This document shows, one piece after another, positions 1,741-61,925 of a stretch of 64,000 nucleotides of DNA. Position 1 is the stretch's first letter. Every line of letters begins with the position of its first letter. The position numbers and the translations under genes are program-made. Under the pieces are notes generated by a model. That model was not told the DNA's origin. It did no database searches and saw only the letters and a list, made by a program, of their open reading frames with translations. The stretch comes from Lepidostoma basale (taxonomy: Eukaryota; Arthropoda; Insecta; Trichoptera; Lepidostomatidae), in the NCBI GenBank assembly GCA_022606425.2, contig JAHDVF020000215.1:248001-312000 (forward strand), written 5' to 3'.

Positions 1741-1880
1741 ATTCACAAAATATTTAAAAAAACACGACATTTTTCAGAGGATACCTCCATCTTCAGGATA
1801 TCTCCATCTTTATCTTCATGGAGGTATCCTCCGAAACATGGCGTGTTTTTAATTTTTTTTTAAATATTTTGTGGATAAAA
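1741..1880. mobile_element. Family F inverted-pair element (two hammerhead-like arms)
   Basis: The arms face apart. The minus arm (1764-1797) reads CUGAAGA-U-GGAGG-UAU-CCUCU-GAAA. The plus arm (1814-1842) keeps GGAGG-UAU-CCUCC-GAAACAUG but has lost the CUGANGA box and has GGC where UC is expected. The outer flanks 'aaatatttaaaaaaacacg' and 'cgtgtttttaatttttt' mirror each other, so the whole unit is a palindrome. Confidence 0.65.
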
Positions 1881-2039
1881 CAAAGTCAATGCCTTAGCGT
1901 TCAATAAATATTATATGTTTTTTTTAAAACTGCTAATTTTTTTAATCTTTATATTTTTAATAAATATTTTCTTTCTGCCCACCCCTTCGGAGAGACGTCG
2001 TGATGTTTAGTTTATTTTAAAAAAATATATACGAAACTT

Positions 2040-2482
2040 CCTTCCGCAAGCGTTTGTCACATTTCTCGCGCCATTTAAACACGTATCCTAATTTTACCAC
2101 TTCCAAGTGCTAAAATTATTATGCAAGAAGTAACATGGCGGCCCTGTCTCGATACGCCGTGAGCATAATGGCTTTATTCAAAATGCGTAGGTCAAACTTG
2201 AACCGTAATGTAATCGTCTACATAGTTGCACCTTCTAGGTCAGTCAGTCTGGTCTCGTGTTTCAGCATTCGAGGATGTGCGCAGATCCTGAGTGCGCACG
2301 CTTTTCGTACGTCTTTTGTTTGTTTCGGTTCGCTTTTCCTGCGCGCGCCATCTTGATTTTCCGATCTGCATTTAAAATGCCGGTCCGCTGTGATTGACGT
2401 TCTATACAATGTCATGTGTTTTGTTAAGTGTTTAAATTTTAATTAATAACGTTTGAGTTCATTGTTTTCGTTGTGATTTTAA
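2040..2482 (+). promoter_or_regulatory. Candidate promoter / non-coding first exon
   Basis: A CpG-bearing, less AT-rich patch in very AT-rich DNA. It has a TCAGTCAGT initiator-like sequence at 2240-2248, a 'cgcgccatcttg' motif near 2342 and a possible donor 'AAG|GTACCT' at 2482. There is no convincing ORF. It could be the start of a transcript running rightwards, but nothing ties it to the coding exons. Confidence 0.25.
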
Positions 2483-2489
2483 GGTACCT

Positions 2490-3040
2490 ACCTAAAGCTT
2501 ATCTCAAAATGTGCACTATGAATGTTTTAAGTGATAAAGTGACAATAAAAACATAATTTGAATTATGTTATAAATATATGATAACGTTTGATACTATTTT
2601 AGCTTTAACTTATATTTACATTTCTACTATTGATTTCATGAAATAACTTTCATTTATTTCAACCGTAAATCAACTCATTTTAAATATTTGTTCAATTGCT
2701 CATGTTTTTTTTTCGCGATACATTCTTGAAGATATTACTTTATCTTATCATTTTAATCTGGTTATTTCCTTCGACTATTCAAGAATCGGCGATAAACATC
2801 GATAAGTTACCAGAATGTCCATTGAAGTGTATTCTACAATATAAAATTTGAAACATTCAAATGGTTACAAGATCAAACCAATTTTGTTTTATTCGTGTCG
2901 TGGTTATGAAATCAAAACTACAATAATAATTTCAACCTACGCCGGTTATAAACAATTAAGTTTCATTATTGTTATACTTAGAAAAAAACGTGTGTCATAT
3001 CATCATATTAAACAAAATTTATGTTAATGTCTTGTTTTTC
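2490..3040. other. AT-rich DNA, nothing supported
   Basis: No ORF, SINE box or hammerhead-like motif was seen in this stretch between two GC-richer patches. Confidence 0.4.
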
Positions 3041-3413
3041 TATTGTCTTCGCCCAGATGCGGCGTAAACTACGACCGTCTTAGAAATAGCGTGAAAGTTG
3101 ATCGCATAATTAAAAACCTTCCGAAAGTTATGTGAAAATTCGTTAACACTCTCACTCGGGCAGACGCGAATTTTGTATTGTTTCATTCAACACATTTACC
3201 ATTCTTACAGCGGTTTCTTAAGCGAAGTGATGTGCCGAATGTGGTGAATCGAAGAAAATTTATAAAATGTTGTGAATCGACTTTTTTGATACGGTCCTCT
3301 GTGAGTGGGTGCGTGAATTGATAATATCTGTGTAAATAATTCTGTGTTGTCTGCCATATTGGATTGGAAGCTGTTTGTCGTGTTCGTAATCGCACCTGTT
3401 CACTCACTTATAG
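3041..3413 (+). other. Candidate non-coding exon ending at a strong donor
   Basis: A unique, CpG-containing stretch ends in 'cacttatag|gtaagt' with the GT at 3414-3415, a near-ideal donor. Stops in all frames argue for 5' UTR. It resembles an insect first exon and precedes the coding exons by 23 kb on the same strand. The link is inference. Confidence 0.3.
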
Positions 3414-3754
3414 GTAAGTTACAGTTCGATGTACACAGATGAATACCACGTACTTTGCAACAGATACTGAAATCGCTTGTTGATCTTAACTCTGACGTTT
3501 TTTTATTTTACTAATTCGGTTTGCGCACGAGTAAACAAATGGTTATTTTTTCAATATGATTTGAATATTACACTAATTATCTCGTCATACAGTTTTGAGT
3601 GAGATTAAATAATGGGTTACTGTATATTGTATTGTTTGATGATCGATGTTTTTAAAACGAGTTAATAAAAAATAACCTCATATAAACAATTTATCATTTT
3701 TTCTATATTCGCCATCACTTAGTGTTGTGAATTCTTAGTAAAATAACTATTTGA
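3414..3754. other. AT-rich DNA, nothing supported
   Basis: If the donor at 3414 is real this is intron. No repeat of the window was recognised here. Confidence 0.4.
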
Positions 3755-4140
3755 AAACATTGTATTTTCACGACACTTTTTTGCACTTTTCACAAACATG
3801 TTTCGGACACAGACACCCTTCCTCGGTGTATAAATTTTAACAGTGTAATATAATAAAATCGTTATCTACATACTAAATGAAAAATGAACAAAGTATAAAA
3901 AAGGGGGGAGGGGGAGATAAATTAATTCAAGAGGTAGGGTAAATTGAAAATTAGTTGGAAGGGAAACAAATAAAATATCGGACATGAAGATAATTATATT
4001 TGGTTGTTAATAATATCTTCTTTATTTTTAATTTAAAAAATTTCGAGGTTATACAATATAACATTTTTTATTATATAATTAACGTATACCGAAACATGTT
4101 TGTGAGAAATGCAAAAAGGTGATGTGAAAATAAAATGTTT
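3755..4140. mobile_element. Family G inverted-pair element
   Basis: The left arm ('cacttttcacaaacatgtttc') and right arm ('gaaacatgtttgtgagaaatg') are inverted copies. Between them lie ~250 bp of AT-rich spacer with a GGGGGAGGGGGAG run. The left arm carries a full hammerhead-like motif on the minus strand; the right arm keeps only the 3' half (GAAACAUGUUUGUG). Confidence 0.6.
3791..3830 (-). ncRNA. Hammerhead-like motif, family G
   Basis: On the minus strand: helix I 5' UACA (3830-3827), box CCGAGGA (3826-3820; U4 is C), extra A (3819), helix II GGGUGU..GUGUCC (G-C, G-C, then G-U wobbles), GAAA (3804-3801), ACAUGU palindrome, U17, then UGUG (3794-3791). UGUG pairs with UACA over 4 bp (one G-U). 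The U4-to-C change may abolish cleavage. Confidence 0.45.
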
Positions 4141-60014: not shown

Positions 60015-61080
60015 GCTTTTAGACGCTTCTCTGTAGAGCTTTCACGGACCTAACTATTCTGTGCATCTTTCAAATACTTCTAACGCGGATCGGAACTTTC
60101 GCTTTTAAAATTACCATTAATCTGTGTGCTTAAATGAAAACTGCCGTTTGTAAGAATCAACAAACTGTAAACAATATTTTTTCAATGGTGTTTGTTTTTG
60201 TTTTCTTTTGAAGTGTTTAGATCTTAATATTATAACTTAACATAAATGTTATTAAGATATCTTTATCTATCTTAAATAAACTATTCAAATTCTTGTAAAA
60301 CTATTTTAATAAAGTGTTTCATATCGTGAAAGTATTAATTTAGTAAAACAAACGGATACCCTTGTGTTGATGTGATATGTTTCGTAATAAAATGTAGCTC
60401 AGTGTTTAAATTTATGTCTCAAAAGACAATTGTGAATGTGTAAGGTGACTCAAATTTAATATTGTAAAACATAGAATTCACTGACACACACAAAACCACA
60501 TCATAAAATTTTATAATCACAAACAAACATACATGTTTTCTCATTATTTTTTAATTTAATACACTGATACATAATACTTATATTTATTAATTATTTAAAG
60601 AATGTGATATTATTAAGATTAAAAAAAACATTCAAAGCTTTGAATAAGATAAATTTGAAAACAAAAAAAAATTTTGACAACTTCACTTACAACTTCAATA
60701 CTATAATTTCGATTTTTTTAAAACCAAACAAAACAACGATGTAATTTAGATTTCTTATAATGCTATTGATCCATTATGCATTTTATTCGCATTTGATAAT
60801 TTATTATATTGTTTAATTAAACGATTGTTTACAATTTTAAAAAAAAAATTATTCCAGATATTTTTTTGTATTTTATTAGTTGTGTATAAAAACATATTTT
60901 TCTATCTTTTAAATTATTATAATTTAGATTTCTTTGTTATAGCATTCTTTTCGTATGGTCGTAGAGTAAATCCAAATATAAATAGGACTGTGTTTAATTG
61001 ATAGCGATTTATCATAATATCATATTGTAGTATAAACCTATTGAAATGTGAATCATGTGAAGAAATAAAACAGTTATCTG
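60015..61080. other. Possible 3' UTR, then AT-rich DNA
   Basis: 60015-60130 is GC-richer and unique; beyond it the sequence is very AT-rich with several AATAAA words. No repeat family recognised before 61085. Confidence 0.35.
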
Positions 61081-61084
61081 TTAA

Positions 61085-61280
61085 CTTTGAAACACTATTA
61101 TTCTATCACAATTTAATTTCTATGAAATTGTCTCCAAAGCAGTTTCGCCAATCTATATTCAGGCGTTACAAATGACTAAACAAGAGATGTTTGTAACACC
61201 GAATAATGTCAACATAGGTTGGCGAAACAAGCATCGCGACAATTTCATAGAAAATAAATAAATAAATTGTATAATAATAT
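61085..61280. mobile_element. Family B inverted-pair element, degenerate
   Basis: Arms 'tatgaaattgtctccaaagc' and 'gcgacaatttcatagaaaat'. Right core (61196-61245): 'ccgaataatgtcaacatagg' then GUUGGC-GAAACAAGCAUCGCG: helix II and GAAA kept, box and palindrome damaged. Confidence 0.65.
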
Positions 61281-61302
61281 TATAACAGTATTGAAAATTT
61301 AA

Positions 61303-61570
61303 CAAAATAGTCCATTGTTTTGACCGAAACACTATGATACTTCAACATTATTACTGTTAAAATTTAAAACAATGTTATAATATCACAATTTCTTTTTATT
61401 CACTGAGAGCGTCGCGACAGCTGTTTCGCCAACCGATGTTAGCATCATCGGGTGTTACAAACTGTTTATTGTAATACCCGTTGATGCCAAAACAGCTGTC
61501 GCGACACTCTCAGTGAATAAAGAGAAATTGTGATATTATATCATTGTTTTAAATTTTAACAGTGAACATT
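61303..61570. mobile_element. Family B inverted-pair element, near-complete
   Basis: Outer 'agtccattgttttgaccgaa', 'cactatgatacttcaacatt', 'taaaatttaaaacaatgtta'; left arm on the minus strand (61404-61460): CCGAUGA-U-GCUAAC-AUCG-GUUGGC-GAAACAGCUGUCGCGAC (U4 is C, helix II 6 bp). The right arm (61470-61500) is truncated. Mirrored outer module 'aaattgtgatattatatcat'. Confidence 0.75.
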
Positions 61571-61589
61571 TTAACATTATTAATATGTA

Positions 61590-61925
61590 CGAAAAAACGT
61601 TAGTTTTCAATGAGTTTAATTATAATATTTATGCATGACATGTTTCGCCCTTCTAAGGCATTATCAAATGTGACGAAACTTCAACTCGTTGCAGTGATTA
61701 ACGAAAATTGTTATTCTGCCACCATAGTCTGCTCCATTTACTAGTGTACGATGCTGCATAAACTGCAACGAGTTGAAGTTTCGTCACATTTGATAATGCC
61801 TTAGAAGGGCGAAACATGTCATACATGAATATTATAAAAAAACTCCTTGAAAACTATCGTTTTTTCATACATATTAATAATTTAATATGGAGTTTTACAT
61901 CATTGTTCAAGAAACAATAAATCGT
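61590..61925. mobile_element. Family C inverted-pair element, best copy
   Basis: Arms of ~95 bp: 'gcatgacatgtttcgccctt' / 'aagggcgaaacatgtcatac', 'ttcaactcgttgcag' / 'ctgcaacgagttgaa'. A ~70-bp spacer lies between. Core (plus, ~61787-61822): UUGAUAA-U-GCCUU-AGA-AGGGC-GAAACAUGUC, helix II 5 bp; G8 is A. It ends 'catcattgttcaagaaacaa'. Confidence 0.8.

Follow-up and report, generated by a model that had tools for sequence, protein, structure and literature searches.

Penelope-like elements as the very probable source of dispersed repeats with a hammerhead-type motif in the trichopteran Lepidostoma basale

Minimal, dimer-type hammerhead ribozymes are already known from Penelope-like elements (PLEs; available parts of PMC6155905 and PMC6466107). 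Here, we analysed a stretch of 64,000 nt of Lepidostoma basale (GenBank assembly GCA_022606425.2, contig JAHDVF020000215.1, positions 248,001 to 312,000, forward strand; hereafter the window), which is AT-rich, dense with transposon remnants, and carries several families of repeats (F1-F8) built around a hammerhead-type motif. With the PLE hammerheads of Cervera and De la Pena (2014) and Lunse et al. (2016/2017), as presented in the available parts of PMC6155905, PMC6466107 and PMC6431247, these repeats share a minimal motif located in pseudo-long terminal repeats (pLTRs), a diminished helix III, and a palindromic helix III of the double-hammerhead type. In this comparison, made through citing papers only, they stand apart in three respects: an additional base follows A9 in all families, the core pair is U3-A8 in F4, F6 and F8, and Rfam does not detect them. 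In PAc, the Poseidon PLE of the lizard Anolis carolinensis (available parts of PMC11167929), a pLTR hammerhead likewise overlaps the start of the open reading frame (ORF), and the C3-G8 pair matters; cleavage of PAc needed protein, whereas cleavage here is predicted from sequence. The Penelope families of Adineta vaga (available parts of PMC3846280) share inverted and direct pLTRs, palindromic head-to-head junctions and an optional tail on one inverted pLTR, with a tail of 31 bp and target-site duplications of 8-10 bp as against about 40-45 nt and 12 bp here; unlike in those families, non-coding units dominate the window. Finally, animal retrozymes carry type I hammerhead motifs whose weak helix III acts as a dimer in amphibians, but these lie in tandem repeats and are called canonical in the available text (PMC7229834).

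We consider it very probable that the repeats of the window derive from PLEs bearing a hammerhead-type motif. They are mainly pLTR fragments of several PLE lineages. For F1, F5, F6 and F8 this is shown by PLE coding sequence next to the motif, in the window or elsewhere in the genome (a single remnant each for F1 and F6); for F2-F4 and F7 it is likely. A total of 28 motif copies were segmented by hand, each consisting of a box resembling CUGANGA with one extra base behind it, then helix II, GAAA, a stretch that is largely self-complementary, and the nucleotide H17. These copies were picked from a longer list of anchors (2-3 mismatches allowed), most rows of which were dropped as decayed or unrelated; consequently, all statistics computed from them depend on this selection. 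The copies and two further features are as follows.

1-41: F3 tail
536-721: F4 composite
1759..1803, - strand: F1c motif, head to head with 1822-1866 on the + strand
3788..3833, - strand: F5b motif, helix I of 4 bp
7372..7420, + strand: F2c motif
12607..12654, - strand: F2b motif, helix I of 5 bp
12668..12715, + strand: F2d motif, direct partner of F2b
14700..14749, + strand: F3a motif, CTGATGA T GCTAACATCAGTTGGT GAA ACAGCTGT C
15162..15206, + strand: F4c motif
16404..16451, + strand: F2a motif, TCGATGA T GAAGGTGTAAGCCTTC GAA ACATGT C, helix I UUCUC/GAGAA of 5 bp
17590..17636, - strand: F6d motif, helix I of 4 bp
21058..21107, + strand: F3g motif
22010..22057, - strand: F1b motif, helix I of 4 bp
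26102..26147, - strand: F6b motif, TTGATAA A CGTTACTTGTAACC GAA ACATGT C, first helix II pair unpaired
30067..30112, + strand: F6c motif
30219..30264, - strand: F5a motif, CTGATGA A GGGCTTGTGTGTCC GAA ACATGT T, helix I of 7 bp, matched at E 0.045 by a covariance model from which it was held out
35984..36033, - strand: F3f motif
36160..36204, + strand: F3e motif, palindrome deleted
38556..38603, + strand: F1a motif, CTGAAGA T GGAAGAGGTATCCTCT GAA ACATGT C, helix I UACAC/GUGUA of 5 bp
46538..46587, - strand: F3c motif
46831..46880, + strand: F3d motif
51196..51250, - strand: F6a motif, long helix II
51294..51338, + strand: F6e motif, helix I of 5 bp
54314..54362, - strand: F8a motif, TTGAAAA T GCCCTCGCAAGGC GAA ACAAATTTGT A, letters identical to the motif beside the PLE ORF of genomic stretch L016
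55697..55741, - strand: F4d motif, first helix II pair A-U rather than G-C
56550..56595, + strand: F7a motif, CAGAAGA T GGCAGCAAGCTGCT GAA ACCGAT T
61193..61242, + strand: F3i motif, decayed box
61409..61458, - strand: F3b motif
61630..61674, - strand: F4a motif, TTGATAA T GCCTTAGAAGGGC GAA ACATGT C, with U3-A8
61783..61827, + strand: F4b motif

An earlier note, made from the sequence alone, had described this shared layout, and the segmented copies bear it out. Its count of about ten families (A-K) holds in that several exist, but eight rather than ten or eleven were resolved and some of these are related (F5 with F6, possibly F4 with F8); similarly, the range it gave (1741..61925) includes the bulk of the copies, with the F4 composite and the F3 tail at the head of the list falling outside.

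The motif is real and lies far above chance expectation. Exact occurrences of GAAACATGTC, GAAACATGT and ACAGCTGTCGC in the window number 10, 18 and 7, as compared with 0.2, 1.04 and 0 in dinucleotide shuffles (n = 50), and a 22-mer of F3 has 5,061 exact copies in the genome (769 Mb), where its reversed control has none. When 25 exact anchors and 974 other GAAA sites were scored for the box and helix II, with inserts of 0, 1 or 2 bases permitted equally, a score of at least 9 was reached by 14/25 anchors and 41/974 other sites, and a score of at least 10 by 10/25 and 16/974, at least three of these 16 being family members. All 10 anchors with a score of at least 10 have exactly one inserted base. 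Six families (F1-F4, F7 and F8) have U as the inserted base; F5 has A and F6 either A or G. The helix III stretch is exactly self-complementary in 22 of the 28 copies (ACATGT, ACAGCTGT or ACAAATTTGT). Pattern scans of contigs of viruses, bacteria and archaea did not find the motif.

Across the 28 copies, the core shows A6 in 28, A9 in 27, G5 in 24, U4 in 19 and GAA in 21, with one extra base after A9, and H17 is never G (C in 21, U in 6, A in 1). Core pair 3-8 is C-G in 14 copies, U-A in 10, U-G in three and C-A in one, i.e. Watson-Crick in 24/28, and its two sides covary (Fisher p 2.7e-4, not a strict probability given that the copies are related). The U3-A8 version characterizes F4, F6 and F8; a change from C3-G8 to U3-A8 is known from natural hammerheads, and activity of such pairs has been shown (PMC3088659, section 8, in the available text). 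In the 26 copies left after setting aside F3e and F6a, helix II (four pairs) together with pair 3-8 is 92.3% paired, compared to 59.5% in shuffled alignments and at most 51% in slid versions, confirming the helix II covariation that had been proposed from the sequence. The same set gives 54 cells altered on both sides (20.7 in shuffles) and a covariation score of 0.974 (0.324 in shuffles); these two values and the paired fraction each stand at 0/500 shuffles. Pairs with a double-sided change (5 versus 4.0; 86/500) and further pair types (16 versus 14.6; 124/500) are not clearly above the shuffles.

Helix I (four pairs) is 72% paired across families as against 39%, and two of 5000 family permutations were as high. 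In an alignment of 20 copies, with F3e, F5 and F6 omitted and five rows gapped in helix II, the two helices and pair 3-8 together are 78.8% paired versus 61.1% in shuffles; pair 2.1-1.1 is standard in 19/20 copies (C-G 13, U-A 5, U-G 1, other 1), and 29/60 cells of the three helix I pairs beyond it show no standard pair. Helix II is present in all families and helix I in most; judged from sequence comparison, their covariation and that of pair 3-8 speak for an RNA of the hammerhead type. A covariance model built without F5 and F6 retrieved four of seven held-out copies (E 0.045, 0.17, 0.91 and 1.5) and missed three at E<=5, a recovery that is suggestive only; it also finds its own training copies, as expected by construction.

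The link to PLEs comes from the rest of the genome and from remnants in the window. As query we used P0008, an unnamed PLE-type protein from a list of 120 proteins, the named ones of which are from ants. From 1,134 candidates, 62 matches were scored, the best at E 8e-79, and many of them have open frames of more than 800 codons. A set of 32 stretches (L009-L040; L012 overlaps with L040 and L016 with L019, and L010 is nearly identical to L011) wholly contains 34 of the 62 matches. PLE coding sequence is present in all 32, and a motif of the same lineage lies near it in 30, inverted and/or direct, in a scan allowing inserts of 0-3 bases and requiring a palindrome and a near-consensus core. Among 12 distinct motifs near PLE coding sequence, 11 have exactly one extra base and one (L026) has three; ACCGGT and ACGT palindromes also occur in motifs beside PLE ORFs. 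Six ORFs compared, each of a different lineage, are 27-71% identical in protein; five of these six lineages have the motif, with contiguous helix I pairs of 5, 4, 3, 2 and 3 (this sum of 17 was reached in 12 of 10,000 shuffles). An F8 motif stands both before and after the 821-codon ORF of L016, and F5-type motifs follow the ORFs of L027 and L028. In Pfam, RVT_1 was matched by all five ORFs tested, and GIY-YIG passed the cut-off in one of the five and fell just below it in another; a regular expression found a GIY-YIG-like motif in 4/6.

PLE coding sequence in the window itself consists of decayed C-terminal remnants only. The F5-type ORF matches such remnants upstream of F1a, F5b and F6b, once elsewhere in the window, and in L004 (one of eight F3 stretches); among the 32 stretches, i.e. 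34 of the 62 matches, we found no autonomous ORF for F2, F3 or F4. The L028 ORF also includes MNPQHKVMANIEE, which is close to a peptide read from an F6 tail in the window.

3958..4113, - strand: decayed PLE ORF C-terminus upstream of F5b, tblastn E 1.4e-5
26012..26050, - strand: F6 tail reading MNPQHKVKADVEE, with its counterpart in the N-terminal part of the L028 PLE ORF
26297..26383, - strand: decayed PLE ORF C-terminus upstream of F6b, tblastn E 1.3e-4
31071..31260, - strand: decayed PLE ORF C-terminus with no segmented motif beside it, tblastn E 5e-10
38078..38244, + strand: decayed PLE ORF C-terminus upstream of F1a, tblastn E 5e-8

The earlier note had left three relatives open for what it took to be self-cleaving elements or their descendants, namely PLEs, retrozymes and satellites. 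Because motifs of this kind accompany the PLE ORFs of the genome, in inverted and direct terminal repeats, and C-terminal remnants lie in the window, these candidate classes narrow to PLEs; together with the covariation, this supports the proposed descent. Retrozyme-like or satellite hammerheads spreading as small circular RNAs would also leave non-coding copies with hammerhead-type motifs. Nevertheless, the units here are head to head, as opposed to the tandem repeats of ~150-450 bp of animal retrozymes (PMC7229834, available text), a scan of the window for periods up to 500 found no tandem array of motif-bearing monomers, and three of the motifs have remnants of PLE coding sequence upstream, making such an origin highly improbable.

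The head-to-head arrangement of the motif copies can be followed in four units.

12558..12808: complete F2 unit with inverted pLTR, direct pLTR and a tail on the right only
12546..12557 (left) and 12809-12820 (right): target-site duplication GAAAAACCCTAT of the F2 unit, null P(>=12) 0.0007
46236..46937: complete F3 unit with tail, inverted pLTR, internal block and direct pLTR
about 46274-46463: nested insertion within this F3 unit, read by eye
46224..46235 (left) and 46938-46949 (right): target-site duplication CATTCAATAATA of this F3 unit
61300..61572: F3 unit with a tail on the left only
61576..61922: F4 unit with inverted and direct pLTR and a tail on the right only

All 10 readable F2, F3 and F4 units have a single tail of about 40-45 nt, on one arm (seven units judged from alignment rows on both arms and three in part by reading; the tail borders of F1, F5 and F6 were left unset). 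Perfect 12-bp target-site duplications were present at two whole units among 19 trial boundaries, the other 17 showing none or 7-9 bp; a 12-bp match between random pairs has a frequency of 0.0007. Many units are long inverted repeats, and F3a is nearly palindromic, with a long alternative hairpin possible, as would be expected of DNA hairpin transposons resembling miniature inverted-repeat transposable elements, in which the hairpin would serve the transposase as a signal and resemble a hammerhead by accident. The strand-specific conserved core and the tail on one arm only in the 10 units read run counter to such an origin, as does the same kind of motif on the flanks of reverse-transcriptase ORFs, and for F1, F5, F6 and F8 it is already largely refuted; overall, we regard it as extremely improbable.

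Other repeats lie in or next to such units, partly in nested layers. A hAT-like element at 36254-36953 (classified by eye; end CAGTGGTTCCCAAA, 8-bp duplication GTTTAAAA) is inserted in an F3 copy and itself carries another F3 unit at 36500-36746, and a near-perfect hairpin element with 108-nt arms (93%) at 61922-62165 directly follows an F4 tail. A block recurring by eye at about 15375, 36070, 40515 and 46720 on the + strand and 52850 on the - strand (AGCAAGAACTTYAAAAT...GGAACAAAT), in or near F3 units, may belong to the interior of the F3 element.

Several results weigh against the assignment to PLEs or against a working ribozyme. The 120 PLE-type proteins gave nothing convincing in the window (best E 0.042 in tblastn and 0.38 with a profile), where PLE proteins from the genome itself did detect remnants; a protein search with the tail peptide returned two candidates, neither at E<=10, and the start of the inverted junction of L028 differs from the predicted cut. 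Moreover, in the scan requiring a palindrome, one of the six lineages has no motif of its own, L025 having none at all and L026 only motifs of other types. This lineage (758-codon ORF) offers a natural comparison for the need of the motif.

With Rfam, neither the window nor any of three short stretches gave a hammerhead at E<=10, and all listed hits were below the gathering score of their family. Of 13 copies folded alone with RNAfold, helix II reached P>=0.7 in seven and both helices P>=0.9 in two (F2b and F5a), and F1a, F3a, F5b, F6d and F6e favour alternative folds. All eight F3 copies have at most 1 bp of contiguous helix I, and it is 0 bp in two F2-like copies (L026, L030) and one F3 copy (L001). 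C3-U4-G5 occurs in none of the four F2 copies, U4 is replaced by C in seven of the 28 copies overall, and several F6 copies depart from the core. The extra base after A9 lies in the motif core, where other insertions lower activity (PMC3088659, available text). Finally, in the available text on the lizard PLE (PMC11167929), the hammerhead needed the element's protein and hammerhead mutants were unaffected for insertion in vitro. Because that hammerhead cut only with protein and its mutants still inserted, activity is here a prediction.

An alternative that accommodates many of these points is that the motif descends from a hammerhead but has lost cutting, and is kept because a start codon, a structure bound by reverse transcriptase or a palindrome used for strand transfer overlaps it. 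In L012 the first ATG of the ORF is inside the motif (L012:3933, - strand), and the ORF of L028 runs through the motif from the palindrome's ATG (L028:1883, + strand), so that part of the motif is also coding. The extra base, the lack of an Rfam match, the mixed folding and the F3 copies without helix I would equally fit a loss of activity, as would the continued insertion of the lizard mutants. By contrast, covariation persists at pair 3-8 and in helix I, both from family to family and among lineages with 27-71% protein identity, and H17 is other than G in 28/28 copies; a motif retained for another reason need not keep such features. We regard this alternative as a real, if rather doubtful, possibility, and lean slightly towards RNA cutting by at least one intact family.

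If PLE hammerheads of this kind do cut, a transcript running from one pLTR through the ORF into the next would carry two motifs, whose ACAUGU, ACAGCUGU, ACCGGU, ACAAAUUUGU or ACGU stretches could pair with each other as a shared helix III. Such a dimer would assemble two active sites, the most likely form of the predicted activity, and cutting after H17 would release a unit-length RNA, possibly with the help of the element's own protein, as published for the lizard PLE. The short copies of the window may have been carried in by PLE machinery as non-coding passengers and have decayed since. Activity is predicted to be least likely in F3 and in the F2 copies that lost G5, and most likely in F5, F8 and the type found in L012.

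Tentatively, the motifs could represent a distinct hammerhead subclass that is dimeric and ancient in PLEs, with one conserved base between A9 and helix II and a switch between C3-G8 and U3-A8, and missed by Rfam. Three points are added to the primary descriptions, as these are represented in the available parts of citing papers: the extra base is constant among lineages that split deeply, the core pair switches, and current models do not detect the motif. A literature search by title found none on an extra-base insert in Penelope hammerheads, which does not imply absence from print. Should a core with the extra base cut RNA, the accepted hammerhead consensus would be too narrow, and genome searches relying on current models would overlook a great number of copies. 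PLE lineages in nature carry the motif intact, weakened or broken, which makes the purpose of PLE hammerheads directly testable.

PLEs were not found in protein scans of viral contigs, and a tRNA scan returned none. Likely host-gene exons were recognized by eye at 27088-28446, 37037-37239, 42265-42500 and 45474-46190; 27088-28446, the one exon searched, matched five unnamed proteins. The window also contains two copies, 95.3% identical, of a ~790-bp repeat (about 7997-8777 and 13845-14633) and an imperfect 10-bp tandem repeat, ATGGTTACAC, at 28863-28983.

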